Origin: Bacillota bacterium
GTDB taxonomy: Bacteria > Bacillota > Sulfobacillia > JACIYH01
Assembly (NCBI GenBank): GCA_040757085.1
Contig: JBFLXJ010000023.1
Location: forward strand, 1-64,000
DNA: 64,000 nt
Direction of reading: 5' to 3'
Positions 7,582 to 29,761 of this stretch are shown here, in pieces (the first letter of the stretch is position 1; each line of letters starts with the position of its first letter). The translations under genes and the position numbers were made by a program. The notes under the pieces were generated by a model, which ran no database searches, was not told the origin of the DNA, and saw only the letters and a program-made list of their open reading frames with translations.

Positions 7582-7601
7582 GATAAGGGGGGAAGACTGT
7601 G

Positions 7602-8219: not shown

Positions 8220-8234
8220 GCAGGAGGTGGCCCG

Positions 8235-9098: not shown

Positions 9099-9355
9099 TA
9101 GTGATGTGGATGCTTGCTACAGCGTTGTTTTCGGTACGCGGTGGTTGCTCTAGTGCTCTTCGGCTGGACAGGCGGTTGCGCTGGTTACTCACGCCATTAG
9201 TTGATGATGCTCTGCCGACTTCTCGTGGCGCCTGACCATTGTTGACTTGAGCAGCACCCGGAGGGTGTACGGGTCTCGAGCCCATCGTGACGTGCGGCCG
9301 GGCCTTGGAGATTGCAATGAGGTGATTCAAGAGCAGTTCAGGGGGTGAAGAGTCT

Positions 9356-10606: not shown

Positions 10607-10771
10607 ATTGGAGACAAGGGAGACGCAAGGATGCGCAGGGCAACCTTCCCAGGTTCCAGGCTGTTACGTGGGGGAGTCCGGACGGCCTACTCTACGGAAC
10701 AGGGTGGTCCTCTTACAGGGCAGGCAGTCGGCCTGCTAGGGGTGCGCGTTGTGTACTAGATGTCGACCACC

Positions 10772-10813
10772 GTTGCACGTGATCTCGACCAGGATTGCAC
10801 GCGATGGCGACCA
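10772..10813 (+). repeat. IS21-type terminal direct repeats
   Basis: Two 20-bp copies, GTTGCACGTGATCTCGACCA and ATTGCACGCGATGGCGACCA, separated by 2 bp. These are the multiple transposase-binding repeats found near IS21-family ends. Confidence 0.65.
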
Positions 10814-10841
10814 GTCGGAGCGAAGCGACGCTGGGTGGTGG

Positions 10842-11059
10842 TTACAAATCGTGCTGGTCGGCTTCGCGTGTACTGTTCTTCACCCTTCTCATCGATTCCC
10901 CCTTCATTGTGATCTTGTGGCTGTTATGAACGAGCCGGTCGAGGATGGCATCCGCCACGGTGGGGTCGGAGATGGTGGCGTGCCAGTGCTCAGTGGGAAT
11001 CTGGCTGACCACAATGGTCGACCGTGCCCCCGCCCGGTCGTCGATCACCTCCAGGTTCG
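10842..11059 (-). pseudogene. istB: istB fragment
   Basis: About 72 residues matching the C-terminus of IstB, the ATP-binding partner of the IS21 transposase. [19 protein letters not shown] is followed by [20 protein letters not shown] and MKGESMRR, which is the sensor-like end of the AAA+ domain. Walker A and B regions are absent because the 5' part of the gene is gone. Confidence 0.78.
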
Positions 11060-12231
11060 GGCAGGGGGACCGCTGCGTGTCCCCGTTAGTGACCGTTGGT
11101 CCGAGAGGAGTCGGTACCGGGAGGTGCCGGCAGGCGATCAGGGGCCTAAGCGGCTGTGCGGAGCGGTGGGGGTATAGTGCCGTAGCCCGGAGTGCTCGTG
11201 TGCCGGCGTGTCACGCGTGGCTTGGACCATCGCCGCTGGACAGGTGCTCGAGCCGAAGCCGACAGTTGTTTCCGCGTGGAGGAGACGGATAGTGGTCTTC
11301 CCTGAGGCACGCGGCACCGTACGTGTCAGGGAGGAGGATAATCGTGGTCAAAGAGACCGAGGTTCCTTCGGATCTGCCGGGGGTGGGTTCGGTCCGACCG
11401 CCCGGAGGAGCCCCATCCTGGTTCTGGGCCTTCCCTCCCCGGATTGCGACCGGCCGGGGGAGGGGTACCGGCGATGCACGTGGCGTCGTTCGTGGACGCC
11501 CCGGTGCTCGGCTCGCGGGTGGAGGTCGGCTCCTGATCCCTGCGGGTGACGTGCAGGGACGCTCGCGGAGCGGTGGCATGGGCCTGGGCGAGACGGCCGC
11601 TGAGTACGCGATGGGGGCGGTGTTCTCTTGGTGGCCTCCGGAGGCTTTCCGGTGGTTGGCCGGAGGAATGCAAAGCCTGGGCGGCCTCGTTCGGTAAGTG
11701 GAGATCCGTCTGGAAGCGGTGGGACGCCGTGGCTTAGCCGGAAGTGTGGCGTCTCGGGGCGATTCGGGGGATGCCGTGTGCTGGTGTTAGGGGGTGAGAC
11801 CCTCGGGTTGCTGGCGGAGTGCGCTGAGCTTGGGGTCTAGCCAGCCAGGGCCAGGTTGCCCAAATCCCCCCGAGGAGTCTTGGGTAATGCTGGCGAAGGC
11901 ACCACCTGAGGCCGGATTCGGTGGAATCGGGGACAGGGGGGGTGTGGCGAAGGTCGGAGGGTCCAAGATTGAACGGAAGGGGTGGGCCAGAGACGACCGG
12001 GTCTCATAACCGAGTAAGAACGGCAACGCATAGCGTGCTGAGTTGCTGCTATACCGACAGGGGCAGTACGAGAGGAACGTCAGCGTACTGCAGCCGACCA
12101 AGAGGGGGCTCGGGCGGGCCATAGGGATCATAAGCGGAATTCGCGGGGGGCCAGGAGTCGAGCGAGCGGCCCGGCTACCATCTCTCCATGAATATGAGCT
12201 GGGTGCCTGTGGTGAAAGGAGTCGGGTCAAG
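11060..12231 (+). other. Stretch without a convincing gene
   Basis: About 1.2 kb between the IS21 remnant and the large STAND gene. The open frames are short and GC-skewed. The best candidate is 11323-11697 (plus strand, ending in MGLGETAAEYAMGAVFSWWP), but I cannot support it as a gene. A run of short, possibly decayed coding segments is likely. A functional promoter for the gene at 12232 should lie in its last 200 bp; none stands out. Confidence 0.35.
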
Positions 12232-15200
12232 ATGAAGAGGCCTTCCTCGGCTTCAGGCGGATCGGCCGCAGCCGCCGGCATGGAGTTTCAACACCGCGTA
12301 GCAGCCTGGCTGGCCGTACACATCCTGGCGGAGAAGGGTGCAGAACCTCCGTGGGGTCTCCCCGTAGGGACGACCCTAGAGTGGCTCCAATGTGAGACCG
12401 AGCAGTCTGTCGACGACCTGCTGCTGGGTACGTCAGCGGAAGGTTACATCTTTGCACAGATTAAGCAGAAGGTTACCCGCGACAAGTCCACTGAGTCAGA
12501 CCTGGCATCGGCTCTTGACCAGTTCGTCCGCCAGTTTCTTGCCGGAGGTTCGAAAGCCAGTGGCATGCGGGCCGCAGAGCGATCTCTAGATGTAACCCGG
12601 GATCGCCTCGTGTTGATCACGTCGCCGAGGAGTTCCAGACCGATCCAGGAACAACTACGGGACATCTTATCCAGGTTGCGGAGTGACTCGCTGCAAGTGC
12701 TCGACGATGCAGCGAAGAACAGTGAGGAACGGCGTACACTCTCCTTAGTGAGAGAGCATGTCACGAGGTCCTGGCGAGAAACAACTGGAGCAGATCCGAC
12801 GGACGAGGACCTCCGGGAACTGCTCTCCCTGGTCCACGTGGAGGTCGTGGATGTGGAAGAGGGGCGGGGTCAAGAGCGTGAAGCGTTGAGTCTTTTGCGT
12901 AATACCGTTTTACGGGATCCCGACCAAGCTCAACTGGCATGGGCTCGGCTCATCAGCTTGACCGCATCATTGGCTGCGCGACGACGCGGAGCTCGGCGTA
13001 TAGACCTCCAGCGCGCGCTAGCGGACGCCGGTGTCGGAGTTAGAGCCGTTCGAAGCTATCGGGAGGATATCGAAAGGCTTAGGACATACTCCGCAACTAC
13101 GCTTAACATGCGCGCCGATTCTGCCCAGATCCGTCTGGGGTTTCTCACGATCAGAATCCAGCGGCCGTCCACTATGGCTCTAAGGCGGGCCGCTGAGGAA
13201 AACTCCATTCTCGTGGTGGGAGAGCCGGGGGCCGGAAAGTCGGGTACCTTATACAACCTGGGCGAGGCGCTTGAGGGGGAGGGCCGTGAGTTCATATTCC
13301 TGGCTGTCGATCGGCTCTCCGCTAGAAGCTTGGGCGAACTCCGGGCGGAGATCCGCCTCGAGCACGAGCTGGTGGAGGTGCTAGACAATTGGCCGGGCCA
13401 GCAACCGGCTTTCGTCATCATAGACGCCCTGGACGCGGCCCGTGGGGAACCGGCCGAGGGGGTGATCCAGGACTTGATCCGCCAGGTCATCCAAAAGGGC
13501 GGGCGGTGGCGGATCGTGGCTTCAATCCGTACTTTCGACCTACGGTACAGCGGAGAGCTGAAAGTCTTGTTTAGTGGGAGCCCTCCTACGGAATACCAGG
13601 ATCCGGAGTTCCCGGGTGTGCGGCACTTCAAAATTCGTGGGTTCTCCGATGAAGAGCTGAGCCAGGTCATCTCGCGGTCCGCCGAACTAGGTGCACTCGT
13701 ACGTAATGCATCCGAAGAACTGAAGGATCTTCTACGGGTCCCCTTCTACCTACGGATCATGGCTGAGCTACTCGGCGGCGGCCTGAGCCCAGATGAGCTT
13801 ACGCCGATAAGAACGCGGCTTGAGCTTCTCGATAAGTACTGGGAGCGCCGGGTCTGGCACGGAAAGCACGGAGGCGCGCGCGATGCGGTCTTGCGTGAGG
13901 TATGTGAGAAGATGGTAGCGGCGCGGGCGCTCCGGATTGACCGCTCGGCCGTTGAACGGGCCGAAACTAGCGTTGTGCTCGACGACCTCCTCAGTGCACA
14001 AGTTCTCGTGGAGTGGCAGCCTTTACCTGAAGCTCGGCCCGAACGGTACGTTCTGGCTTTTTCCCACCACGTAGTATTTGACTACGCAGTAGAACGACTG
14101 TTACTGAGAGGAACCCCCGACCAATTAATCCGTCGCTTGGGTGAAGAACCCGACCTTACGGTCTTTATTCGGCCCAGCCTCGTGCTTCACTTCTACCACC
14201 TCTGGAGAGCTGATAGCTGTCATGGCCAGTTCTGGGACCTTGTCTTCCGTGTGATTCCCAATGACCGGCTGCCGGAGATAGCTAAGCTGATCGGGCCTTC
14301 AGTTGGAGCAGAGATTGCACTGGTGCTCTCGGATCTCAAACCCCTGTGCGCCGCCCTCAATGACATGAACTCTCCCGATCATGTCGCTGCGGAACAGGCG
14401 CTGCGGCACCTTGTTGGTGCCCTGTTAGCGGGAGCCCCAGACCGACTCGTGGGTCCCGGCGCTGGCCCTTGGAGTGAACTCCTCGAACGTTTAAGCGGCA
14501 ACCTCACGCCGTCTCTGGCTTACCCGGTTCTGTCGCTTCTCAAGACCATGTGCGACCGCCCGGAGGACTTTACCCCTGAGCAGCGAGCCGCTGCAGGGCA
14601 GGCGGCCCGGCGACTCCTTGAGTTTTCCTGGACCCTTGACCCGAGAGACAGCCGGCTGGTCATCCACTCCATACGCTGCGTATGCCGTACTTTCGAGAGC
14701 GACCCATCTGCGTCTGCGGCGCTAATCCGGCGTTGCCTCGAGCCTGCGCACCTCGTGAACTATGGGTACGAAGAGATGCCGTGGCTTGCGCGAGAGGTTA
14801 AGCGCCTTATTGCCCTTGATCAGGAGCTCGTTGGGGAGATTTACCGCGCGGCCTTCACCTTCGAGGAGACTTCGGAGGAGCCTACGCCAATCGGTCAGAG
14901 CGGCATCCTGCCATTAGTCTCCACTCGTCGGCAGGACTACCGCATGGCGCGGTACGAGTTGGCCGAAGCCTTCCCGGAATTCTTAGAACGTGAGCCGGAT
15001 ACGGCCGCTCGCACGCTCGTCGCGGTTATGGAAGCATACGTCGATAAGCATCAACGTCCGGCTACCGGGGAATGGCAGGAAGAAACGTTCGATTTCGAAG
15101 GTCGCCGTGCACGCCTCCTCGTTGACTACAGCGCCATTTGGGACGAGGGCGATACGTACCGCCATGACGAGCCTCTCAAAATGCTTGACGCTTTCCAGCA

Positions 15201-17211
15201 TTACATGGAGGGGCTTGCTGGGCGGGAAAGCCGTGTTGAGCAGCTTCGCACACTCCTGCACATTCTGGTCTTTGAAAACCGCCTTGCCGTCCTCTGGCGT
15301 CGCGTTCTTTCCTTGGGCGCCCGCTTCCCTGTCATTGTTGGTAAGGTCATCCTACCTCTTGCCTGGGCAACACCCATCCTTACTGCTTTCGACACAACCG
15401 TGCCGGCCGGTGACTTTATCCGAGCGGTTTTTCCGTACCTCGACCACCAGGAGCGGCGGCGCATTGAGCAGGCTATTTTGGGCATTCCTCAGGCGGTACC
15501 GGCGGAGGAACGTGACGAGGCTGAGCACATACGTAATCGTCTCCTCGGGTGCCTTACGGTCGAGAAGCTCGTCACCGGCGAGGCTAGGCGTCTCATTGAG
15601 GAGCTTAAGCGCAAGAACGCGATCCCCGCTAACGAACCGTTGGTGTCGTTCGAGTTCGGGACTGAGGCGTACGATGAGGAAAGGCATTTAAAGGACCGCG
15701 GAGTACCGGTAGACGCTGGGGCGAATCGAAAGATCCGGGAATTGGAGGGCCCGGTGAAGGGGTTTGCTGACAAGCACCTTAACTCTGTCCCCACGCGTGA
15801 GGAAGTCAACGGTGTCCTCCCGGCCCTGCGAGCCCTTCACCAGGCGCTCTCCCGCGCCGACATTGACGGCGTCCATCCGATGCAGCGTGACTACGCTTGG
15901 GGTCACCTCGCTGCTGCGTGCGCCTGTATTGCCAGAACCGATGGGATCTCATGTGCTGCCGAACCAGGTTCGTTCGTGAAGCATGTTCTTCTCGAAGCGA
16001 GCTGTCACCACCAACCTGCTCATCATCCTGAATACGATGCTCAGTTCGATGAGCGCCCGGGGTGGGGGAGCCCCGCAGCACGGCTGGAGGCGGCAAGAGG
16101 GCTGGTCGTGCTTGCCGGGCATGCCGAATGTGCAGACAGTGAGGTCTTAAGGGCGATTGAACGCCTGAGCTGTGATCCCGTGCCCGCTGTCCGCTTCCAG
16201 ATAGCCAGGTATCTTCAGGCGCTGTGCAGCACCGCACCCGACTTGATGTGGGATGTCATCGAGCGCATGTCTCGGCGTGAAGAGAGCCGTGGAGTTCTGC
16301 AAGGACTTCTAGCAGGCCCGCTTCGGGGGTTGGCAGGTGCTGAGCCGGACCGGGTCGCGGATTTGACAAAGGCGATCTTCGACCGTGTATGCGAGGGCCC
16401 CGGGGCGAAGGCGGTCCGGAGATTCTGCATGGGGATCTTCGCTGGGCTATACATCTGGCGAGATCACCCTTTTTGCCGCGAGGTGGTTTTGGAGATTGCC
16501 TCGGATCCTGCTCCCTTTGTTGAGGAGGTAACTCACATCTTGACCAGCCTCGGCGAGGCGGCTACGCATGGCTCGGTGACTCGTCCCGAGCCCAGAGCGG
16601 ACGCTGTTCGCCAACGAGCGCTGGATTTGGTTGAACGACTCTTGCGTTCCGCACGCCGCGATCTACGCGACCTTGAACAACGCAGCCGCAATGTCCCCTT
16701 CAAACAGTGGCCTCAGCAAAACCAGGACAAGGCCAAGTCGCTGGCGCAACTGATCGATAGGATCGGCACTCATGTGTACTTTACCTCCGGGGCACATGAC
16801 AGTCAGCGTCAAAGCGGGTCTGTTGCGGCGCAACGGCCGAAACCTGAGTCGGAGAGGTTCTATCGGGAAGCGACCACCATTTTAGACGAGCTCGCGGAGG
16901 CAGCGCTACCGAGCGTGACCCATCACCTCGTGGAAACCCTGGAGTTCTTCATCCCCATAGACCCCCGGGGCGTTTTTCTGCGGATCGGCCAGGTCGTTCG
17001 GTACGGGGAGCAAGGGGGGTATCAGTATGAGTCTCTTGCAGCCGATTGCGTTGTAAGGCTTATTGAACGCTACCTGGGCGACAACCGGACCCTATTGCGT
17101 GAAGACGCAGAATGCCGGCAGACTTTGATCGAAATACTCGACGTTCTTATCCGTGCGGGTTGGCCAAACGCACGGCGACTCGTTTACCGTTTGGAGGACA
17201 TCTTCCGGTGA
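12232..17211 (+). CDS. Avs-like STAND NTPase with N-terminal Cap4-like nuclease
   Basis: A 1659-aa protein with three parts. Residues 15-110 match the Cap4-like dsDNA endonuclease domain: MEFQHRVAAWLAVHIL, then ETEQSVDDLLL with acidic residues at 61-62, then FAQIKQK with Q76-x-K78, a (D/E)-QxK active site. Residues about 310-480 are a P-loop NTPase with Walker A GEPGAGKS (330-337) and Walker B AFVIIDALD (D398), followed by WRIVASIRTFDLRY, of the STAND type. The remaining roughly 1100 residues are helical repeats without enzyme motifs, the expected sensor region. This order is that of Avs antiphage proteins, which recognise a phage protein, multimerise and cut DNA. I cannot tell which type. 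The ATG at 12232 is chosen because AAAGGAG lies 10 bp upstream; the open frame extends 63 codons further. GC content is clearly below that of the chromosomal half. Confidence 0.88.
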   Translation: MKRPSSASGGSAAAAGMEFQHRVAAWLAVHILAEKGAEPPWGLPVGTTLEWLQCETEQSVDDLLLGTSAEGYIFAQIKQKVTRDKSTESDLASALDQFVRQFLAGGSKASGMRAAERSLDVTRDRLVLITSPRSSRPIQEQLRDILSRLRSDSLQVLDDAAKNSEERRTLSLVREHVTRSWRETTGADPTDEDLRELLSLVHVEVVDVEEGRGQEREALSLLRNTVLRDPDQAQLAWARLISLTASLAARRRGARRIDLQRALADAGVGVRAVRSYREDIERLRTYSATTLNMRADSAQIRLGFLTIRIQRPSTMALRRAAEENSILVVGEPGAGKSGTLYNLGEALEGEGREFIFLAVDRLSARSLGELRAEIRLEHELVEVLDNWPGQQPAFVIIDALDAARGEPAEGVIQDLIRQVIQKGGRWRIVASIRTFDLRYSGELKVLFSGSPPTEYQDPEFPGVRHFKIRGFSDEELSQVISRSAELGALVRNASEELKDLLRVPFYLRIMAELLGGGLSPDELTPIRTRLELLDKYWERRVWHGKHGGARDAVLREVCEKMVAARALRIDRSAVERAETSVVLDDLLSAQVLVEWQPLPEARPERYVLAFSHHVVFDYAVERLLLRGTPDQLIRRLGEEPDLTVFIRPSLVLHFYHLWRADSCHGQFWDLVFRVIPNDRLPEIAKLIGPSVGAEIALVLSDLKPLCAALNDMNSPDHVAAEQALRHLVGALLAGAPDRLVGPGAGPWSELLERLSGNLTPSLAYPVLSLLKTMCDRPEDFTPEQRAAAGQAARRLLEFSWTLDPRDSRLVIHSIRCVCRTFESDPSASAALIRRCLEPAHLVNYGYEEMPWLAREVKRLIALDQELVGEIYRAAFTFEETSEEPTPIGQSGILPLVSTRRQDYRMARYELAEAFPEFLEREPDTAARTLVAVMEAYVDKHQRPATGEWQEETFDFEGRRARLLVDYSAIWDEGDTYRHDEPLKMLDAFQHYMEGLAGRESRVEQLRTLLHILVFENRLAVLWRRVLSLGARFPVIVGKVILPLAWATPILTAFDTTVPAGDFIRAVFPYLDHQERRRIEQAILGIPQAVPAEERDEAEHIRNRLLGCLTVEKLVTGEARRLIEELKRKNAIPANEPLVSFEFGTEAYDEERHLKDRGVPVDAGANRKIRELEGPVKGFADKHLNSVPTREEVNGVLPALRALHQALSRADIDGVHPMQRDYAWGHLAAACACIARTDGISCAAEPGSFVKHVLLEASCHHQPAHHPEYDAQFDERPGWGSPAARLEAARGLVVLAGHAECADSEVLRAIERLSCDPVPAVRFQIARYLQALCSTAPDLMWDVIERMSRREESRGVLQGLLAGPLRGLAGAEPDRVADLTKAIFDRVCEGPGAKAVRRFCMGIFAGLYIWRDHPFCREVVLEIASDPAPFVEEVTHILTSLGEAATHGSVTRPEPRADAVRQRALDLVERLLRSARRDLRDLEQRSRNVPFKQWPQQNQDKAKSLAQLIDRIGTHVYFTSGAHDSQRQSGSVAAQRPKPESERFYREATTILDELAEAALPSVTHHLVETLEFFIPIDPRGVFLRIGQVVRYGEQGGYQYESLAADCVVRLIERYLGDNRTLLREDAECRQTLIEILDVLIRAGWPNARRLVYRLEDIFR

Positions 17212-17383
17212 TCCCGCCTTCCTCTCTCTTGGGCAGCCCCGCTTTCGGGTGGGAGCAATTTGGGAGCAAACGCGCGCAAACCAGCGCCCAAAACGCACCC
17301 CCCATGCCACCCCACCCCGCGAAGAATCCAACAGCGGCAACGGTTTACAAACTGGAACAAACTGCAAACAGGCCATTTTTCCA

Positions 17384-17429
17384 ATTCGTAATGCGCGGGC
17401 TGTGGGTTCGATTCCCTCCACCGGCTCCA
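17384..17429 (+). repeat. attL: tRNA-Thr(CGU) 3'-half repeat
   Basis: Carries the anticodon loop TTCGTAA, the T-arm GGGTTCGATTCCC and the acceptor end CACCGGC-T-CCA. It matches 29551-29596 at 43 of 46 positions. The upstream sequence does not form the 5' half of a tRNA, so this is not an intact gene. Confidence 0.88.
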
Positions 17430-17493
17430 CTTTTTCAACAGCCCCAAGGGTTTCCGGGCTGGAAGCCCTTGGGATTTGCGCTCCGGGGGGCCT

Positions 17494-17515
17494 TTTGCTA
17501 ACCGTTTGCTAACCG
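17494..17515 (+). repeat. Left arm-type integrase sites (probable)
   Basis: Two tandem TTTGCTAACCG units 11 bp apart, overlapping the last codons of the integrase gene. The same pair occurs near the right end at 29391. The position just inside both att sites fits arm-type integrase binding sites. Confidence 0.65.
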
Positions 17516-18664
17516 CGGCCCGCGGAGCAGAAGGGACTCCAGCCACGACGCCGCCTCCCTCTGCATCCCCGGCATCGCGTGGGCGTACAGGTCCAGCGTG
17601 ATCCCGACCCCCGAGTGGCCGAGCCTCGCGGAGAGCAGCTTCGGGTGCAGCCCCCGCTGGGCCAGGAGCGTGGCGTGGGCGTGGCGGAGGTCGTGGAACC
17701 GCGCCTTGATCCCCGCCCGCCGCACGAGGTCGGCGAACCGCGAGCTGACCGACTGGGGCAGGAGCGGCGAGCCGTCCTCCCGGCAGCACACCAGGCCCCA
17801 GTCGTGCCACCGCTCGCCCGCGGCCAGGCGCGCGCGGGCCTGCTCGGCCCTGTGCCGCCGCAGGGCGGCCGCGAGGTCGGGGCCGATCTCTATGGCCCGC
17901 CGGGAAGCGGCGCTCTTGGGCTCCTTGAAGACGTGCTGGCCCTTCGCGGGGCTGTAGAGAGACCGCCGGACGCTGATGAGCCCGGCCTCCAGGTCGACGT
18001 CCTCCCACCGCAGGGCCAGGACCTCCCCCAGCCGCATCCCGGTCGCCAGCGACAGCAGCGCGGGCATGTAGGCGTTCGTCCCGCGGACGGCGTCCAGCAC
18101 GGCCCTGGCCTGCTCCGCGTCCAGGGCCGCGAACTCCCGCCGCGGGGGGCGCGGCGGCTCCGCCCCGTCGCAGGGGTTCCTCGCCAGCAGGCCCCACTTG
18201 ACGGCTTGGGCGAGCGCCCTGTGCAGCACCCTGAAGTGGTATAGCGCGGTGGCCGGGTGCAGCCCCGGCTTGCCCTTCTGGTCCCTGCGCCCCTGTTGGA
18301 TGTCGTAGGCGAGAAACTGCTGCACATGGGCGGGGGTGAGCCTTGCGAGGCGCACCGCCCCCAGGCGCGGGATGATGTGCATCTCTACTGCCACCTCGTA
18401 CCGCCGCCTGGTGGCGGGCGAGAGGTTGGGCCCGTGCGCCGCCAGCCACTGCCGCAGGAAGTCCGCGACCGTGAGCTTCCCCGGGTCGGCCCACTCTCCG
18501 CGCTCGAGCTGGCTTATCATCTCCGCCAGCACCCTCTCCGCGTCCCTCTTCGTTCCCTTCACCGTCACCCACTTCTGCCGCCGCTTCCCGGTCTCCGGGT
18601 CGCGGGGCAGCTCCACCACGACCGTCCACGAGTCCTTCGATCTCTTCCTGACGTGCCCTCTCAC
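17498..18664 (-). CDS. int: Tyrosine recombinase (phage-type integrase)
   Basis: A 388-aa site-specific recombinase that would insert and excise the element at tRNA-Thr. Residues 1-50 are an arm-binding AP2-like domain (SKDSWTVVVELPRDPETGKR). Residues 60-150 are the SAM-like core-binding domain (LTVADFLRQWLAAHGPNLSP). The C-terminal catalytic domain shows R in ATGMRLGEVLALRW, H-x-x-R in FHDLRHAHATLL, the LGHSGVGITLDLY box and the nucleophile Y in LDLYAHA. I choose the GTG at 18664 because the open frame upstream is low-complexity and overlaps the excisionase region. Its 3' end overlaps the left arm-type sites. Confidence 0.95.
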   Translation of the reverse strand: MRGHVRKRSKDSWTVVVELPRDPETGKRRQKWVTVKGTKRDAERVLAEMISQLERGEWADPGKLTVADFLRQWLAAHGPNLSPATRRRYEVAVEMHIIPRLGAVRLARLTPAHVQQFLAYDIQQGRRDQKGKPGLHPATALYHFRVLHRALAQAVKWGLLARNPCDGAEPPRPPRREFAALDAEQARAVLDAVRGTNAYMPALLSLATGMRLGEVLALRWEDVDLEAGLISVRRSLYSPAKGQHVFKEPKSAASRRAIEIGPDLAAALRRHRAEQARARLAAGERWHDWGLVCCREDGSPLLPQSVSSRFADLVRRAGIKARFHDLRHAHATLLAQRGLHPKLLSARLGHSGVGITLDLYAHAMPGMQREAASWLESLLLRGPRLANG

Positions 18665-18714
18665 CTCTTTCGGCGCCCTCCTCTCCCAGAAAGGGCCGGG
18701 CGGGGCGCCGCCCG

Positions 18715-18930
18715 CTATTTCGCCCCGCCCGCCGCCTGCACCTTCTGCCCGGCCTGCTCCGCCATCCTCAGCAGGGCGTCCCGGGGGACCCGGATGAACC
18801 GCCCGATCCGGAACGCGGGTATCTGCCCCTGCCGGACCAGCTCGTAGGCCGTGCTCCGCTTGAGCCTCAGCAGGGCCGCTGCTTCCTCCACGGTCAGGAA
18901 GCGGGGCAGGCCGCTCTCTTCCGGCTCCAC
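18715..18930 (-). CDS. Excisionase-like HTH protein
   Basis: A 71-aa DNA-binding protein of the excisionase (HTH_17/MerR-like) family. LTVEEAAALLRLKRSTAYEL is the helix-turn-helix and GQIPAFRIGRFIRVPRDAL is the wing, both at normal positions. It starts at a GTG after GGAGGGGGTGAT and lies 50 bp upstream of the integrase on the same strand. That is the usual xis-int order, so it probably controls the direction of recombination and may also regulate transcription. Confidence 0.9.
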   Translation of the reverse strand: MEPEESGLPRFLTVEEAAALLRLKRSTAYELVRQGQIPAFRIGRFIRVPRDALLRMAEQAGQKVQAAGGAK

Positions 18931-19048
18931 GCGCGATCACCCCCTCCGGCGAACCCCGAATCGTATGCGGCGTTCCGAACCCGCCTTAGCCCCCCGCTTT
19001 TGCCGTCCGTATGCGGCGTAACCGGCCCCCGAACGCCGCATACCGCCC

Positions 19049-19476: not shown

Positions 19477-20193
19477 TCACGGCCCGCCGCCCGCCGCCCC
19501 TTGGGCCTCGGCGGCGCGCACGGGCCGGTCCGGGTCGTCCGACGTCTCCGCGTACAGCAACAATACCCGCTCGATGTAACCCACGGTTTCAGGAAACGGC
19601 GGCACCCCGCCCCACCGGTCGACCGCGCCCGGCCCCGAGTTGTACGCCGCCAAGGCCAGCTCCAGGTCGCCCCCGTAGCGGTCGAGCATTTTCCTGAGAT
19701 ACGCGCAGCCCGCCCGCAGGTTGGTTTCGGGGTCGAACGGGTCTTCGTGCGGCGAAAACTTGTCCGGCATCACCTGCATGAGCCCCAGGGCCCCCGCGGG
19801 GCTCACCGCCAGCGGGTCGCCCCCGGACTCAGCCTGGATCACGGCCAGGACGAGGGCGGGGTCGAGGCCGTGCTCGGCGGCGATCTGTCCCGCGAGCGGA
19901 GCCCACGCTTGGACGGCCGGCGCGATGGCGCGCTGGCCCTGCGCCCCCGCGGCGGGAAGGCCGGGGGCGAAGGCCCCCACCTGCTGCTGGAGCGCGAAGA
20001 AAAACCATCCCATGCCCAAAACGCACCAGCCCACGGGGGCAGCAATCAGGGAGCCGACCAAGACCCAAACCAGAAGGAACTGGCGCAGGCCCGGGTCAAG
20101 CCGCCGCCAGCGGCTCAAAAACCCCCTGGCGGCCTTGCGGACCGCCCATTCTGCCGCCTTTTTGGCGATCCACGCCGAGACCGGGTCGCCCAC
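19477..20193 (-). CDS. Membrane-anchored lytic transglycosylase
   Basis: A 238-aa SLT-family murein hydrolase, probably opening the cell wall for DNA transfer (VirB1-like role). A transmembrane segment lies at about residues 30-65 (LRQFLLVWVLVGSLIAAPVG, then FFFALQQQV). The SLT domain runs from about residue 95, with the catalytic Glu in AVIQAESGGDP, the ALGLMQVMP motif and AAYNSGPGAVDRW. I choose the GTG at 20193 because GGAGGTG precedes it by 6 bp. The longer frame upstream runs through the repeat-rich region. A lone transglycosylase with a relaxase-like gene but no pilus genes is a feature of mobilizable elements. Confidence 0.9.
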   Translation of the reverse strand: MGDPVSAWIAKKAAEWAVRKAARGFLSRWRRLDPGLRQFLLVWVLVGSLIAAPVGWCVLGMGWFFFALQQQVGAFAPGLPAAGAQGQRAIAPAVQAWAPLAGQIAAEHGLDPALVLAVIQAESGGDPLAVSPAGALGLMQVMPDKFSPHEDPFDPETNLRAGCAYLRKMLDRYGGDLELALAAYNSGPGAVDRWGGVPPFPETVGYIERVLLLYAETSDDPDRPVRAAEAQGAAGGGP

Positions 20194-20597
20194 GATTCCA
20201 CCTCCAAAAGACAATCCGCCGGCCGTGGGGTCCGGCCGGCCCGATGCCGCATTCTGGCAGTAATTGGCGGAAAATGGCAGCCCGAAACCCTTGCGCCGCA
20301 AGGCTTCCAGGCCGTGCCCTTCACTACCACAGACTTCCAGCCGAAAAATTGCCCTCTGGTGGGGGTTTCAGGGAGGGGGGCATATCTCGATATCCCCCCG
20401 CCCAAACGCTCGACGTCCCGGGCGCAGGCGGGCCCCGGAAGCGCCGGGGCCCGGCGCAATCGGCAGTAACCGTTCCTGAAAACGCTCCTGGGGCAACGTC
20501 GCGGCAGGCAGGGGCTCGGAGCCTACGGCCCCAACGGTTATCGCCGACGCCAACGGGCGCAACGGTTTCGGCCCTCTCCGCACCCCCCAATATCGGG

Positions 20598-20720: not shown

Positions 20721-22364
20721 CTACCGCCCGGGTTTCACCAGCTCGAACCCGTACAGCTTCGCCAGCTCTTCGTCGCTCAACACCCGCATCGCCCGCGCCA
20801 GCGCGGTGCCTTCGAGCCCCAGGAGCTTGGCTTGGATCTCCCTGCGGTACCGCGAGTAGTTCGACCACTCGTATTTTTCGGCGTCGGCAATCGTGATCAC
20901 AGGCACGACCTTCGGCGGCTTCACGCCCTGCGCCGGGGGCTCGACGTCCCACCCGACGTACTGCACAAGCTTGTCGTACGCCGTGCGCGCCTCGAGCGGG
21001 CCGTACTCGACGAAGGACTTCGCCGCCCACGGGCCGTGGGCCACCGAGGCCTCCACGCGCCGGCTCACGCGGTGCGGCGTCGCGGTGTCGTACCGCGAGG
21101 CCACTTCCGTCCAGGACCTCTCCGGCACCCACACGTCCCTCTCGACCATGACCGTGTAGGGCTCCCGGACCGTGCGCTCCACCGTCACGGTCTGGTACTC
21201 CGTCCAGGTGACGGTCCGCCAGCCCGCCAGCCTGCGCTCGGGGTACATGACCGTCTTGGTGCGCGTCACGGGGACGAGCCTGGTGGTGTGCCCGACCAGC
21301 TCGTAGCGCGTGACGGTGTACGGCACCCGCTCGTAGTACCAGAACCCGCCGCCCCACGGGAACGAGTACCACTTCCTCACCGTGCGGTACCGCGTTTCGG
21401 CCACGAGCCTGTACTGCGGCACCCGCTCCTCGACCCACTCCGTGTACGTGTACGTGTAGGGCACCATGACCGTCTCGTAGACCGGCTCCTGCCGCGTCCT
21501 GGTCACGGGGATCTGCACCGTCTCGCGCACGGCCCTGGTCCAGTACCGCGTCTCGGGCACCAGCCGCTTCTCCCAGTGCCCGGGCACGGTGACGTCCCGG
21601 TACACGGTGACGCGGTAGTAGTACGGCGTCTCGTACACCCGCGCGGTTTCGGTGACCAGCCGCTCGCGCCAAGTGTACGTCGTCACGGGCCGGGTGGCCG
21701 TGGTGCGGTAGACGTCGGTGACCAGCCACGGCCCCTCGCGGCGCGGCCCGTCCCTCCGCTCGCCCAGGTCCAGCGCCTCCGTGCGGGTCTGTTGCCGGAT
21801 GTCCGCGTACTCCGTCCACGTCCGCGTCCGGGTGTCGACCAGCCGCTCCGGCCCCGCGAACTCCTGCCTCGCCGTGCGGTAGCTGACCCGCGCGCTCGCG
21901 CCGTACTGCCGCTCGGGCTGCGCGGGCCAGTCCACGGGCTCGGGCGCGGCGGCCTGGGCGGGCAGGCTCACGGGGTGCCGCTGCTGGTAGAACGTGCCGT
22001 CAGCGTTGGGCAGGTTCAGCCCGGCGGCCGGGTCGGAGCCGAGGACTTCCCAAGGCCTCTGCACCCTCGGGAGCAGGGCCTCGGCGGAGCCGACCGTGTG
22101 GAAGCCCGGCAGGTTCGCGCTTCCGGGGGCGCGGGCCAGCCCCGGCGTGGTCGGCACCCAGCCCACGCTGGAGTACGTGTACGTCCCGCGGGTCACCACG
22201 GTCTGGCCGGTGGCGAGGCCTTGGACGGACTGCGCGTCCCGCTGCTCCCCGATGCCCGTGTCCCACGCCGCACCCGCGGCCAGGGCCGTCCCGGGGGCCA
22301 GCAGGACGAGCGCCGCGGCGGCAGCCGCCAGGAGGAAAACCAGCCGCGTCCTGCTGCGTCGCAC
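20721..22364 (-). CDS. Exported Tyr/Thr/Val/Arg-rich repetitive protein
   Basis: A 547-aa secreted protein of unknown function. It starts at a GTG with AAAGGAGG upstream. A signal peptide (VFLLAAAAAALVLLAPGTALA) ends near residue 30. From about residue 150 to 450 it consists of degenerate short repeats with alternating basic/acidic and aromatic or beta-branched residues, for example VTETARVYETPYYYRVTVYR, RYWTRAVRETVQIPVTRTRQ and PYTYTYTEWVEERVPQYRLV. The pattern predicts long beta strands, perhaps a fibre or surface adhesin. The C-terminal 90 residues are not repetitive and end in a helical segment (DEELAKLYGFELVKPG). No cysteine pairs, sortase motif or enzyme motif is visible. It is the largest exported product of the element. 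Confidence 0.82.
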   Translation of the reverse strand: MRRSRTRLVFLLAAAAAALVLLAPGTALAAGAAWDTGIGEQRDAQSVQGLATGQTVVTRGTYTYSSVGWVPTTPGLARAPGSANLPGFHTVGSAEALLPRVQRPWEVLGSDPAAGLNLPNADGTFYQQRHPVSLPAQAAAPEPVDWPAQPERQYGASARVSYRTARQEFAGPERLVDTRTRTWTEYADIRQQTRTEALDLGERRDGPRREGPWLVTDVYRTTATRPVTTYTWRERLVTETARVYETPYYYRVTVYRDVTVPGHWEKRLVPETRYWTRAVRETVQIPVTRTRQEPVYETVMVPYTYTYTEWVEERVPQYRLVAETRYRTVRKWYSFPWGGGFWYYERVPYTVTRYELVGHTTRLVPVTRTKTVMYPERRLAGWRTVTWTEYQTVTVERTVREPYTVMVERDVWVPERSWTEVASRYDTATPHRVSRRVEASVAHGPWAAKSFVEYGPLEARTAYDKLVQYVGWDVEPPAQGVKPPKVVPVITIADAEKYEWSNYSRYRREIQAKLLGLEGTALARAMRVLSDEELAKLYGFELVKPGR

Positions 22365-23185: not shown

Positions 23186-24199
23186 TCACCTCCCCTCCTC
23201 GCGGGGTGATGTCATACCATCAGCCGCGCCCCGCGCCCTCGGGGCCAACAGCCCCCGCACGCGTGCGGGGGCGCGCCGGGGCGCGCCGATGAACTCGGCC
23301 ACCTCAGGATCCGGCCCCCCTTCCCCGGCCGCCGGGGCCAGGGCCAAGTCGCGCAGGGCAACCTCGGCCGCTTCCCCGTCCAGCAGGGCAAGCCACCTCG
23401 CCGCCAGCACGCCCCCCGCCCAGGCAAACTCTTCCCAACTGCTCACGGCGGGGGCGGGGTCGCCCGGGCCCCACAAATCGCCGTCACGCACGAGGGCATC
23501 GAACACCCCCCGGGCGCGCCGCCGCGTGGGGCACACGAACAGCGCGGCCCAGCCCTCAAGGCGGTCCTGCAGCTCGTGCGAGCAGTACCGCCGCGCCTTC
23601 AGCGCGATCTTCTCGAGCCCGGCCGTCCCGCGATCCAGCTCGAGGCAAAACCGCAGCTTGGTTCCGTCCTCGAACCGGTACTCTCCCGTGGCGTCGGGCC
23701 TCAGCAGGCACTTGGGCGGTTGGCCCTCGCGGGACTTGAGAAACCGCTGCGCCGCCAACAGCGGGCCCTCCCACAACACGAGCCCCCGCCCGACCGCCGG
23801 GTCGGACTCGCGGATCAGCGCGACGAAGAACTCGCTGGCCGCGACGTTGTGCCGCGCCTGCGCCGCCAGCGTCTTCGCCGTCCGCCGGGGCATCGCTTTG
23901 TAGAGAGCGCGGGCGCGCTCGTCGTCCTCGCACAGCTCCGCCACCGCAGACATGCCAGCAGGGGTCAGGCAGTACGCGAAGAGGCGGGGCCGCAGGGGGT
24001 CGCCGACCGGAAACCGCACGGCGAGCCTCTCAGACAGCAAGGCCGAAAGGACGCGGCGCGCAACAGTCTTTTGGCATGGGATGGCGGTGCAGAGCTGGTC
24101 GATGGTAAGCGTCTGCGCCTGGTACAGCCTCGCCAAGACCAGCTCGCGGAGGGTGAACGCCGCGTAAGCCTCAAACGCCGTTGCGGCGGAGACGGCCAT
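23186..24199 (-). CDS. Replication-relaxation (Replic_Relax) family protein
   Basis: A 337-aa protein of the Replic_Relax family, found on Gram-positive plasmids and integrative elements and thought to nick or relax DNA for replication or transfer. The N-terminus is a winged-helix domain (LTIDQLCTAIPCQKTVARRV, then CLTPAGMSAVAEL). The core has HNVAASEFFVALIRE, then LLRPDATGEYRFEDG and FCLELDRGTAGLEKIALKAR, the family's conserved beta-strand block with D and E residues. The length is typical. The ATG has an AGGTGA ribosome binding site 9 bp upstream. It probably acts on the nearby origin-like repeats at 24489-24836 or 25285-25900. Confidence 0.85.
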   Translation of the reverse strand: MAVSAATAFEAYAAFTLRELVLARLYQAQTLTIDQLCTAIPCQKTVARRVLSALLSERLAVRFPVGDPLRPRLFAYCLTPAGMSAVAELCEDDERARALYKAMPRRTAKTLAAQARHNVAASEFFVALIRESDPAVGRGLVLWEGPLLAAQRFLKSREGQPPKCLLRPDATGEYRFEDGTKLRFCLELDRGTAGLEKIALKARRYCSHELQDRLEGWAALFVCPTRRRARGVFDALVRDGDLWGPGDPAPAVSSWEEFAWAGGVLAARWLALLDGEAAEVALRDLALAPAAGEGGPDPEVAEFIGAPRRAPARVRGLLAPRARGAADGMTSPREEGR

Positions 24200-24488: not shown

Positions 24489-24836
24489 GCACGCTTTCCC
24501 GCCGGAAGTCGACGCCGATCTCCTCCACGGTTTCGGAATCGGCGTCGACTTCTCAGGCAAACGCACGCTTTAGCTTAGAGCCGCATGGGCTCAGCACGAC
24601 GCCGTGCCCCGGCCGCCAGGCGAGGCGGAAGCGGAACGCGCGGTTTTGCTTGGAGCCATCGGAGATCGGCGCGCTTTCCCGCGCGCCCCGCTGGAGGCAA
24701 CGGGGGAGAGGAAAGCGCGGTTTCGCCCGGGCTCATCGGGCCTCAGCGCGCTTTCCGGCCGCCCCCGCCCCCGGGAGCCGGGAGGGGGGCGAACGCCAAC
24801 CTTTGCCTACGGCATCACGGCATCGGCGCGCTTTCC
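24489..24836 (+). repeat. GCGCGCTTTCC direct-repeat array upstream of Replic_Relax
   Basis: GCGCGCTTTCC-type boxes recur at about 24669, 24747 and 24827 (period 78-80 bp), with weaker copies near 24489 and 24563 (GCACGCTTT). In the second and third units each is preceded by GCGCGGTTTTGC (24638) or GCGCGGTTTCGC (24715), 77 bp apart. The array sits between the Replic_Relax and HU-like genes and its last copy overlaps the 3' end of the HU-like gene. It is a candidate oriT or regulatory array. The 24200-24814 region holds no protein that I can support. Confidence 0.6.
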
Positions 24837-25231
24837 TCCGTGCCGGCCCCCGCCGCGGCGGCCAGTCGGTCCGCCAAGGCCGCCACGCCCCCCGGCTCCG
24901 CGCGGAGCCTCGGGGCCCGGGCCGCCGCCTCGCGCAGGCGCTTGGCCGCCAAGAATTTCACGGTCTGCCGCCGGCGGTGGGGGAGGGGCTTGAACGTGCC
25001 CAGCCCAATAAGCCGCACTTCCTTGCCCGCGGCGAGGGACTCTGCGATGAGGTCGGCATAGATGTGCAGCAGCCGCCTCGCGTCCACGATGAAGCAGCCC
25101 ATCCGGGCGGCGGCTTGGCGGGCCAGGTCGCCCGCCAGCACGCGCCCCCGGCGGCTCCGGCCGCCCCGCGGCCTCCGCCCCGCCGCGGCCCCGGGCTCGC
25201 CCGCAGCCACAGCTACGTTTGCACACGCCAT
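24815..25231 (-). CDS. HU-family DNA-binding protein
   Basis: A 138-aa protein related to HU/IHF. The central part follows the HU fold: LLHIYADLIAESLAAGKEVR is the second helix and turn, LIGLGTFKPLP matches the conserved GxGTF strand, and the end (VKFLAAKRLREAA) matches the usual C-terminal strand and helix. The arm that inserts into DNA is short here. An Arg/Ala/Gly-rich N-terminal extension of about 45 residues and a C-terminal tail (residues 115-138) are additions to the usual 90-residue HU. It starts at an ATG with GGGGGGAAA upstream. It lies between the two repeat arrays and probably helps to bend DNA at an origin. Confidence 0.75.
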   Translation of the reverse strand: MACANVAVAAGEPGAAAGRRPRGGRSRRGRVLAGDLARQAAARMGCFIVDARRLLHIYADLIAESLAAGKEVRLIGLGTFKPLPHRRRQTVKFLAAKRLREAAARAPRLRAEPGGVAALADRLAAAAGAGTEESAPMP

Positions 25232-25284: not shown

Positions 25285-25900
25285 GTTCCCGGGATTCCCG
25301 GAAAAGTTCCCGAAAAGTTCCCGGTGCCCGGATCCCCGCGAATCCGCCGCGCCCCGCCCCTATATAGTCACGTCACGAGGAGCGGGATCCCCAAGCGTGA
25401 GCGTGATATATAACCCCGCCCGGCGCACCCTGTTTCCAGGTTTTTACGTTCCCGGTAGGTTCCCGGTTTTGCACTTTTCTCACAATCGTTTCCGTGCCTT
25501 GTCGCCGTAAGCGTGAACTTCATTTTCCAGTTCCTTACGTTCCCGGTGAGTTCCCGGTAAAGTTCCCGGCCCGAAAACCTTGTCGCTGTAAGGTTTGAGC
25601 GCATTTTTGGGCGCGAGTTCCCGGTCGAAAATCGCCTTATATATACGCGCGCGATATCACCATCTCTATTCCCCCTCGTGTGTTCTCTCGCCATATAAGG
25701 CATATCCTTTTCTCGCTTTTTACCGGGAACCCTACCCCCAGGGGTATCGCAAAATCGTTCCGCCCCAAGGGTTTGAGGCCGATCAGCCGCCGGGAACTTT
25801 GCCGGGAACCCACCGGGAACCCACAGGATTTTCCAGAGGCAAGTTCCCTTGCGGCACAAGGAAAACATGCCTTTGGCGCGCCAGGAACCTTGCCGGGAAC
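25285..25900. other. Dyad-symmetric GTTCCCGG array, candidate replication origin
   Basis: Eight exact GTTCCCGG copies (starting at 25285, 25317, 25448, 25459, 25539, 25550, 25562 and 25617) are followed by five exact inverted copies CCGGGAAC (25723, 25790, 25802, 25813 and 25893). The two sets converge on an AT-rich core at about 25625-25720 containing TTATATATA and CCATATAAGGCATAT. Several neighbours are 11 or 12 bp apart, one helical turn. The array lies directly between the HU-like gene and the end of the DUF927 helicase-like gene, and no protein is encoded. This is the layout of an iteron-type origin. Confidence 0.75.
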
Positions 25901-25942: not shown

Positions 25943-28300
25943 CTAGAAGTTGAGCTCCTCGTCCTCGCGCTCTCGCTCTTCGTCTTCCTGCCGCCGGCGC
26001 AGCACATATCCGTACGCGAGCTGGTCGCCGATCTTGATTCGGCGAGTGAACGGATGTTCTTCATCCTGGCCCGGGGCCAGCAAACCGGCGTCGCGCCAAG
26101 CCGCCCGGACTGCGTTGAGGTTGTACCCCCGGTCTTTCAGCTCTAGTTCGAGCGCGCGCGGGATGAAGGCGATGCAGCCGTCAGCGAAGCCGCGCACGGT
26201 CCATTCCCACACGCCCAGCCAGCCCTCTGCCGGCTCGCGGGCAGCCGGGTCGCCGCCGTAGAACCTGTGACGGTTGGCCGCAGCCCAAGCCATGACATGG
26301 TCGTACGCCTCTTCGTGCTCGTGCCGCGGGGATTCGCTCCTCAGCGTGTCCGCCAGCGTGCCCTTTACCATGTCGAACAGCTCGTCGTCTCCGACCTCTT
26401 CCAGCCACGTGCCCCTGCCGGCCTCGCGGTGGAACACTTCCGCGGCGAGCGCGACGGCGGCGAAAGGGGCGATGTATCGGCCCGACAGGTCGTCGACCCT
26501 TCTCCGCCCGCCAATTGCGGTCCGCAGCCTCTCCGCCAGCTCCGCGTGCCGGGCCTTCAGGTCCGCCCACGGCATTCCGGCCACGGCCTGGACGAAGCGG
26601 GGCCCTGCGTGGCCGTAATGGCTGCCAACCAAAGCCCGCACCTGCTCCGCCGAGGAGGCGTCCGCGAAAGGCGGGGCCCAGATGTCCACCGCCCGGACTT
26701 GCAGGCCGCCCCGCCTGCACGCGGCGTGCAGGGGCACCTCGCCGGTCGAGACCGCCAGGAGCTGCCATGTCGCGGTGTGGCGCGAGCCGCGGGGCGCGCC
26801 GCGGAGCTTGCCCACCCCGTCGGCGACCATGTACGCCAGCTCGGCGATCTCTTTGCTCGCGCGTTTCTCGTCCAAGACCGCGGCCTCAAGGCCATCGAAG
26901 AAGGCGGGGAGGTGGCGGAGGAACCCGCACGTCTGCTCCCGCCCGACCCTCGTGCTGATCCAGCCCAGCAACAGCCTCGCCGCCCCGGGCAGGCCGACGC
27001 CCCCGGGGTAGCCCCAGCACGACGCGCCCAGCTGGGCGGCCGTGGTTTTGCCCCGGCTCGTCAGGTTGCACAGGTGGAGTATGACGCCGCCCAAGCCGAG
27101 CGGGGCGAAGAGGATCGACGCCAGCGAGGCGTATGTGGCGACCGCGGCGACCGGGTGCCCGGAGAAGGCGATCCGGAACGCGTCGAGCCACCCTTCCCAG
27201 GTCCCGCCCCGCTTCATCGCGTCCAGCAGCTGGGCCTCGCCCGGGCCCGGCGGGTCGACCGCGACGGCGGGGGCTGCGGCCCCAGGCGCGGCGATCACTT
27301 CTCTGCCCCAGACGAAGTAGACGGGATCGGGCGGCGGCCCGCCGCGCCAGCCGAGGGCCGACACCCCCCGCACGAGGGGGAGGCGCGTGTAGTTGGCCTG
27401 CTCAAAAGCGGTCAGGTAGCGGGCCAGCTCGCGGGCGATGTCGGAGCTTGCGACCAGGTCGGCCTCCCGGGCCAAGCGCGTGATGAGCTTCGAGTCCTGC
27501 ACGGTCTGGCGGTCGGTCACGACGGTCTGCCAGCCCGCCGCCGGGGTCCGCCGCCAAGCCAGCTCCACCTTGATCTCGGTCGTGTCCTCGTCCTTCATTC
27601 GCCGGGCAATGATGATCGGGCACGGGCTTACCGGGTACGAGACCGGCTCCCCCTGCCCCAAGGCCTCCCGCAGGATCACGCCCGCCCCGTCGATGTAGTA
27701 CCCGCGCGGCAGCACGAGGCCGTCGGGGCACGGGGCGTCGGGCAGGGCCGCCCGCACCAGGACGCGGCCCTGCTCGTCTACGCCGTCCCGCCCCGGGGCC
27801 TCCGCCGCCTCGGCCTCGGCGGCCCGGGCCTCCATGTTGCGGCGGGCGTCCTCGACCCACCGGCGGATGTCCGTCCTCGGCAGGCCCGTGCGCCGCGCCA
27901 AGGCTTGAATCAGGCGCGCCCGCGTGATTTCGTCCTGCTCCGCGATGCCGTTCAGGATCTCCTGCAGCCGCTCGGCCGGGGGGACTTCGTTCCGCGGCAG
28001 GGATTCGATCCGCTCGAGCAGCGCGTCCGGGCTCGGGGCGGCTTCGGCCAGGCGGCCCGCGGCGGCCTCCAGCCCCCGCACGACCTCCTCGACGCCGACC
28101 CCGAATCGGGCGGCGACTTCCGCCGCCAGCCGGTCCCTGGCCGCCCCGCGCTCCCCTTCCCCCAGCCCCTCCAAGACGCGGGCGAGCTGGGCGAGCGTCG
28201 TGTTCCAGAGCGTCCCGCGGGGAGGCGAGCCTTCAGGAACCCGCGCCAGCCGGGCGAGGAAGTCCTTGACCTTGTCGGCGCTGTCGGGTAAAATAAGCAC
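25943..28300 (-). CDS. DUF927-type helicase/primase-like protein
   Basis: A 785-aa protein. Residues up to about 190 are helical and charged (ITRARLIQALARRTGLPRTD). The middle and C-terminal part match the DUF927 family, a P-loop ATPase group linked to replicative helicases of mobile elements: VSALGWRGGPPPDPVYFVWG, then a phosphate-binding loop CNLTSRGKTTAAQL (near residue 415), then FFDGLEAAVLDEKRASKE as a Walker-B-like acidic region. The last 150 residues include a winged-helix-like segment and an acidic tail (EEREREDEELNF). I choose the GTG at 28300 because AAGGAGG lies 10 bp upstream. It probably unwinds the adjacent GTTCCCGG origin. It is the likely replication protein of the element. 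Confidence 0.85.
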   Translation of the reverse strand: MLILPDSADKVKDFLARLARVPEGSPPRGTLWNTTLAQLARVLEGLGEGERGAARDRLAAEVAARFGVGVEEVVRGLEAAAGRLAEAAPSPDALLERIESLPRNEVPPAERLQEILNGIAEQDEITRARLIQALARRTGLPRTDIRRWVEDARRNMEARAAEAEAAEAPGRDGVDEQGRVLVRAALPDAPCPDGLVLPRGYYIDGAGVILREALGQGEPVSYPVSPCPIIIARRMKDEDTTEIKVELAWRRTPAAGWQTVVTDRQTVQDSKLITRLAREADLVASSDIARELARYLTAFEQANYTRLPLVRGVSALGWRGGPPPDPVYFVWGREVIAAPGAAAPAVAVDPPGPGEAQLLDAMKRGGTWEGWLDAFRIAFSGHPVAAVATYASLASILFAPLGLGGVILHLCNLTSRGKTTAAQLGASCWGYPGGVGLPGAARLLLGWISTRVGREQTCGFLRHLPAFFDGLEAAVLDEKRASKEIAELAYMVADGVGKLRGAPRGSRHTATWQLLAVSTGEVPLHAACRRGGLQVRAVDIWAPPFADASSAEQVRALVGSHYGHAGPRFVQAVAGMPWADLKARHAELAERLRTAIGGRRRVDDLSGRYIAPFAAVALAAEVFHREAGRGTWLEEVGDDELFDMVKGTLADTLRSESPRHEHEEAYDHVMAWAAANRHRFYGGDPAAREPAEGWLGVWEWTVRGFADGCIAFIPRALELELKDRGYNLNAVRAAWRDAGLLAPGQDEEHPFTRRIKIGDQLAYGYVLRRRQEDEEREREDEELNF

Positions 28301-28444
28301 GGCTGTCAGCCTCCTTTTTTGCCCGGAGCCGCCAGCCGCGCCAAAGCCAGCCGGCCCGGGCACTAAGTTTTCTCTCGGCATTTTTGTCGACGCGATTGTT
28401 GCTCGTGTCCCGCGCCCCAGTCAAACGATCAGCCGATCGCGGGT

Positions 28445-29421: not shown

Positions 29422-29550
29422 GAACCCATCTGGACCCGTTGGGACTCAAGGCTTTCCGCCCGCACTGTTCTGGACTTCCACTTCCTGGGGAGCCCCGCCC
29501 GGCCCTTGCGCGTCAAGCGTTTTCGCTTTCTCCCCGGGTTTCCGCGCGGT

Positions 29551-29596
29551 ATTCGTAATGCGTAGGTTGTGGGTTCGATTCCCTCCACCGGCTCCA
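29551..29596 (+). repeat. attR: tRNA-Thr(CGU) 3'-half repeat
   Basis: The second copy of the 46-bp core. It differs from attL at three positions, all in the variable region. It again lacks the tRNA 5' half and ends in the encoded CCA. Confidence 0.88.
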
Positions 29597-29761
29597 AACT
29601 TTCCAGGAATGGCAAGGGTTTTGAGATGGATGCCCTTGCCGTTCCCGCTTGAGGCCGGGTTATAGTCGCAATTTGGTGACCGAGTTCATGCGCCGCTTGT
29701 GCCGGATTCCGATCAGTGCGGGCTATGTGACGATCCGTGCGGGCAGAGGAGAGAGCTGGCA

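Follow-up and report, generated by a model that had tools for sequence, protein, structure and literature searches.

Phage-inducible chromosomal islands (PICIs) carry their replication origin immediately 3' of the initiator gene, always as two sets of iterons that flank an AT-rich region, and the rep-ori segment of one of them, EcCICFT073, sustains plasmid maintenance (PMC6092414). In Staphylococcus aureus pathogenicity islands (SaPIs), the initiator Rep reads the iterons through its C-terminal domain, apparently as two hexamers, according to the account in PMC7581432, which cites the original SaPI work. At the putative origin of the staphylococcal cassette chromosome mec (SCCmec), the self-loading helicase Cch2 binds direct repeats just downstream of its own gene, also via its C-terminal domain (PMC7581432). 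Here, we describe a comparable locus in a Bacillota bacterium of the class Sulfobacillia. It lies in a 12.17-kb integrative element within a 64,000-nucleotide stretch of DNA (contig JBFLXJ010000023.1 of assembly GCA_040757085.1, positions 1 to 64,000; hereafter, the window), where an array of short repeats adjoins a gene for a protein of the Pfam family DUF927. Judging from sequence comparison, this array is very probably the replication origin of the element, of the SaPI/PICI type and with the DUF927 protein as its initiator. A first-pass annotation of the window had also proposed an origin at this site, but within an integrative and conjugative element (ICE) and with an arrangement not known from described families. 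The comparisons below strongly support the origin, whereas the layout is that of the published SaPI and PICI origins (PMC6092414; PMC7581432) and hence not new, and the element does not look like an ICE.

The iteron array and its helicase gene

The 8-mer GTTCCCGG occurs in 13 exact copies within 616 bp (positions 25285-25900), eight in forward orientation followed by five in reverse, and every position given at first pass is borne out. The copies on the + strand start at 25285, 25317, 25448, 25459, 25539, 25550, 25562, and 25617, and those on the - strand at 25723, 25790, 25802, 25813, and 25893. Four additional copies with one mismatch (25294, 25306, 25324, and 25881) are each oriented like their own side. 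The iteron set distal to the DUF927 gene (25285-25624, + strand) holds the eight forward copies and the first three of these variants; the set adjoining the gene (25723-25900, - strand) holds the five reverse copies and the variant at 25881. Close pairs are spaced 11, 11, 12, 12, and 11 bp apart, in agreement with the 11 or 12 bp reported before, and the paired form GTTCCCGG-N3-GTTCCCGG is found at no other site in the genome. With 464 copies of GTTCCCGG in 2.67 Mb, 0.107 copies are expected per 616 bp (log10 P of approximately -22 for the array, in a simple Poisson estimate); the window contains 23 copies, 13 of them inside the array, versus 5.7 expected from shuffles. The first-pass annotation had proposed such a count and had named an even spread of the repeats through the genome as a finding that would speak against an origin; the repeats are not spread in this way.

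The two sets converge on a core of 98 bp (25625-25722), the proposed melting site, with an AT content of 56% versus 30% across the element. The 90 bp at 25635-25724, which overlap this core, are the least stable of the whole element by nearest-neighbour energy. TATATA starts at 25638 and 25640 and CCATATAAGG at 25691, as the earlier description of the core had it. That the region is non-coding is likewise supported, since the open reading frames (ORFs) overlapping the array lack the position-specific GC pattern seen in the element's real genes; a 166-aa ORF over the array (25368-25868) has no Pfam match.

Both neighbouring genes were correctly recognized at first pass. One encodes an HU-like DNA-binding protein (24815-25231, - strand; Pfam Bac_DNA_binding, E = 8.3e-7) and the other the DUF927 protein (25943-28381, - strand; Pfam DUF927, E = 1.6e-27). 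Because both genes are on the - strand, the array is located 3' of the DUF927 gene, approximately 45 bp past its stop codon, and 5' of the HU-like gene, with 54 bp between the first repeat and the start of that gene. The position next to the HU-like gene would suit an operator or autoregulatory site through which this gene is controlled, by binding of either the DUF927 protein or a repressor. However, 13 copies over 616 bp, split into facing sets around a destabilized core, go far beyond the needs of an operator. Moreover, array-bearing relatives have other genes downstream (a gene for a RusA nuclease in the closest of them), and what they have in common as a neighbour is the upstream helicase. 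We consider an operator unlikely.

The DUF927 gene is the only one of its family in the genome, and its product is a predicted replication initiator helicase (PHROG primase/helicase, E = 2.1e-75). In profile searches its matches to the SaPIbov1 Rep (8tch, E = 1.6e-73) and the SCCmec Cch (5dgk, E = 3.7e-50) extend across almost the entire profile, and the same two structures are by far the best folds for its AlphaFold model (Z = 25.6 and 22.3, respectively). On these matches, the protein appears to be a relative of the SaPIbov1 Rep and SCCmec Cch helicases that ends in a predicted winged helix. In the model, this C-terminal part (residues 736-798; 25988-26176, - strand) is the proposed iteron reader, and residues 684-801 match the winged helix-turn-helix of pCW3 TcpK in complex with the pCW3 origin of transfer (oriT; Z = 10.3, rmsd 2.5 over 93 residues). 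HTH_56, the helix-turn-helix family of Cch, gives a weak Pfam match below the family cut-off. For the helical N-terminal region, the PDB gave a weak match to Stathmin and others of low score, none of which was used.

The resemblance to TcpK, together with a gene for a Replic_Relax (replication-relaxation) family protein in the element (23186-24199, - strand; Pfam PF13814, E = 2.9e-15), could also indicate that the array is an oriT, which these two proteins nick or mark for mobilization by a conjugative helper. However, the TcpK match concerns a common fold and gives no indication of function, and the same layout accompanies DUF927 in a SaPI and in a Thermoanaerobacterium phage, for which no relaxase is named in the annotation shown. 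Additionally, a search of 154 genomes of the class returned one weak homolog of the Replic_Relax protein (E = 1.2e-11), and the genome encoding it has no P0001 match. An oriT is in our view very unlikely. Iteron arrays can also serve copy control and partition, but with no ParA/ParB-like gene among the ORFs scanned with Pfam, and with an AT-rich core between facing sets that a partition site does not need, we regard a partition or incompatibility site as extremely improbable.

The layout among DUF927 loci and described origins

To place the locus among its relatives, we gathered 46 DUF927 loci from plasmids, phages, viral contigs, and whole genomes (a SaPI and chromosomal elements included), using for the collection scan a profile built from three sequences. 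Because the loci were picked by similarity to the window protein, the fractions given here apply to its broader relatives rather than to the DUF927 family at large. One 16,673-bp contig that was recovered twice (as G237:C9 and L025) was counted as a single relative. An array was called where one 7-mer occurred at least seven times in the 600 bp after the DUF927 stop codon. Arrays were found at 30 of the 46 loci, compared to 6 of 1282 other 600-bp segments of the same loci. In the SaPI PT1028 (L016), which served as a positive control, the same detector returned nine AGTTCCC iterons with an inner gap of 97 bp and a core of 80% AT.

The 30 array loci have 7-16 iterons each and are similar in their dimensions: the array starts at a median of +16 bp past the stop codon, the largest inner gap has a median of 101 bp (between 85 and 125 bp in 25 loci), and the AT content of the gap exceeds that of the flanks in 26 loci. 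The corresponding values in the window are +45 for the first iteron, 107 bp for the inner gap, and 56% AT in the core versus 37% in the flanks. Four of the 16 loci without a called array (L019, L033, L071, and L072) have five copies each, apparently as weaker arrays, and the remainder fall mainly into one viral-contig clade and one proteobacterial clade of the tree. Relatives that keep the DUF927 gene without an array, the other finding named at first pass as adverse to an origin, are confined to more distant clades, and the window's own clade keeps its arrays. HTH_56 was detected at 23 of the 30 array loci versus 5 of the 16 others.

A Geobacillus plasmid has the layout as well, as does a 42-kb Thermoanaerobacterium phage with a terminase gene. 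In the 13-kb record of the Geobacillus plasmid pSJEF4-2-2 (L012; CP128451.1), the annotated gene set recurs approximately 6.7 kb apart and tblastn finds two DUF927 places; the record may represent a dimer or a carrier of two replicons. The search suggested at first pass, for DUF927 genes followed by GTTCCCGG arrays, would in most cases find nothing, since elements keep the layout but vary in the sequence of their iterons.

Among described origins, the SaPIbov1-type Rep-ori shares with the window a DUF927 helicase fold (8tch), iterons directly 3' of the gene, and their arrangement in two sets around an AT-rich core of approximately 100 bp. The Rep of PT1028 matches SaPIbov1 Rep along its whole length and is nearly identical to it for 500 residues, the differences lying mostly in the last 70 or so (the C-terminal domain). 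PT1028 has the GTTCCC core in common with the window, and of all iterons its own scores closest to GTTCCCGG. The window differs from the SaPIbov1 type in having GTTCCCGG instead of AGTTCCC(G), strictly facing sets, and 13 copies instead of 9, as well as in an extra helical N-terminal region of approximately 220 residues, the lack of a recognized primase, and its other gene content. Gram-negative PICIs such as EcCICFT073, which we liken to the window by layout alone, also have two iteron sets around an AT-rich region 3' of the initiator (PMC6092414). SCCmec Cch2 resembles the window in combining a self-loading helicase with repeats just downstream of its gene, their binding being a prediction in the window, but it belongs to the D5_N/Primase_Cterm family and not to DUF927, has three 5-nt iterons, and has no two-set layout described for it (PMC7581432).

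Iteron plasmid origins of the RepA/TrfA/RepE type resemble the window in their short repeats beside an AT-rich unwinding region. Their initiator is a Rep protein with two winged helices; it is not a helicase and depends on DnaA/DnaB. Their iterons, of approximately 20 bp, point in one direction. In the window, by contrast, the initiator is itself a predicted helicase and the two iteron sets face each other; no Pfam match to a Rep_3/RepA-type initiator was found among the ORFs scanned.

Iteron specificity and a proposed mechanism

The iteron sequence varies among the loci. GTTCC or GTTAC is present on one strand in 16 of the 30 arrays, compared to a mean of 0.8 and a maximum of 5 of 30 after shuffling of the motif letters. 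This core spans arrays that are otherwise different, for example, those of a Streptomyces plasmid and a staphylococcal island.

The closest relative of the window protein, encoded at L025, is 78% identical to it, and the iteron at that locus is TGTGCCC, arranged in the same facing order. The two proteins are 89% identical in the AAA+ core but 53% identical in the winged helix, and the similarity of the two DNA sequences ends near the end of the DUF927 gene. The context of L025 is different, with RusA, RecD2-like, and phage Pam3 gp34-like genes, the first of which follows the array. A change of origin specificity would be expected to leave just such differences, of which this pair is a single example. 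The divergence of PT1028 Rep from 8tch, mainly in the C-terminal domain, repeats the pattern of this pair.

Origin function and iteron recognition via the C-terminal domain of Rep have been shown by others for SaPIs or PICIs, and by analogy we infer the following course for the window element. The integrase would first excise the element, and replication would start afterwards. The DUF927 protein would act as a self-loading, MCM-like AAA+ helicase, whose C-terminal winged helix binds the GTTCCCGG iterons, with pairs 11-12 bp apart placing adjacent winged helices on the same side of the DNA. Each of the facing iteron sets would recruit one helicase assembly, so that two helicases come to lie head to head over the core. 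These assemblies would then open the 98 bp at 25625-25722, giving rise to two forks that leave in both directions. Bending of the origin may be assisted by the HU-like protein, whose gene lies just downstream, but this role is only a guess, as it is a RusA nuclease gene that follows the array of L025.

Several observations weigh against an origin of the SaPI/PICI type that is read by a winged helix. The AlphaFold model of the DUF927 protein is mediocre (mean pLDDT of 71.8), and parts of its AAA+ domain fall below 50. No primase is recognizable by Pfam among the ORFs of the element, and SaPIs usually carry one. The inner gap of L025, at 265 bp, is wider than usual. Finally, co-variation of iterons and winged helices was tried across the 30 array loci and found no support: once similarity of the core is allowed for, iteron similarity and winged-helix similarity are not correlated (partial r = 0.05, permutation P-value = 0.23). 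For that reason, the link between the predicted reader and its iterons draws on one close pair and on the published SaPI work.

The integrative element and its proposed replicon

The 12.17-kb element is bounded by exact 27-bp repeats (17402-17428 on the left and 29569-29595 on the right, both + strand), which have no further copy in the genome and match the 3' half of tRNA-Thr(CGT). Both attachment-site (att) copies, viewed in their surroundings (17380-17430 and 29547-29597), keep this 3' half only. An intact tRNA gene bearing the att 3' end was not found in this assembly; it is present in two genomes of the same genus, neither of which has a match to the DUF927 protein, and the element is therefore accessory. 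In a contig of the same genus (L104), the left flank of the window's element recurs (93% identity over 194 bp) together with that same tRNA half, pointing to an earlier or stacked insertion at tRNA-Thr(CGT). To the left of the element (7000-17000), GC content drops to 0.58-0.63, and a 1722-aa ORF (12043-17211) stops just before the left att copy; this stretch is perhaps another island.

The genes described for the element are all on the - strand. Apart from those already discussed, they encode a tyrosine integrase (17498-18940; Pfam Phage_integrase, E = 3.6e-22; PHROG integrase, E = 1.1e-75), a membrane-anchored lytic transglycosylase with an SLT domain (19477-20301; identified from its sequence and by Pfam SLT, E = 6.4e-28), and a 547-aa Tyr/Arg-rich protein (20721-22364) that looks exported. 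The last has a signal-like start and many Tyr/Arg/Thr-Val repeats, and it has no match in Pfam, PHROG, or NCBIfam and no homolog among the 154 genomes of the class. Two orphan proteins encoded among these genes look exported or membrane-bound.

Among the ORFs of the element, family scans recognized neither a coupling protein nor a secretion ATPase, and no primase or terminase either; the ORFs other than the DUF927 gene have no Walker A motif. Packaging or phage-interference genes (e.g. terS) were not recognized with Pfam, PHROG, or NCBIfam, several ORFs of the element being without a family. Because neither a coupling protein nor a secretion ATPase was recognized, the element is unlike a self-transmissible ICE, contrary to the earlier assignment; both an ICE and a classical iteron plasmid were considered and rejected, as their defining genes were not found. 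As a whole, PICIs are elements of approximately 15 kb with an integrase and a specific attachment site, to which the 12.17 kb, the tyrosine integrase, and the 27-bp att repeats of this element correspond. PICIs further have a primase gene (pri), which stands alone or is fused to rep, and are induced and packaged by a helper phage. The present element also has structural features of the SaPI/PICI Rep-ori module, namely a helicase of the SaPI Rep/Cch type and iterons immediately 3' of its gene, in two sets that flank an AT-rich region. We class the element neither as an ICE nor as an established PICI, and the structure of its probable origin is of a known kind.

More broadly, we lean slightly toward the view that the two-set origin, proposed in 2018 as a hallmark of PICIs, instead serves generally as the replicon of one large part of the DUF927 family, be it in plasmids, complete phages, satellites, or integrative elements. 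Such a replicon would switch iterons through changes in the winged helix while the helicase stays nearly the same, and the window and L025, the former in an element that is neither a PICI nor an ICE, would represent a natural specificity switch. The breadth of the layout outside PICIs and the L025 pair are the less expected parts of the analysis. Through the probable origin described here, a Pfam family still called 'unknown function' gains a predicted mechanistic role, in a lineage far from the staphylococci. The layout also provides a simple rule for finding origins, by which two facing sets of 7-9-nt repeats, separated by a gap of approximately 100 bp, are sought immediately past the end of a DUF927 gene. 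The window and L025 offer a direct test case for how a self-loading helicase changes its origin specificity.
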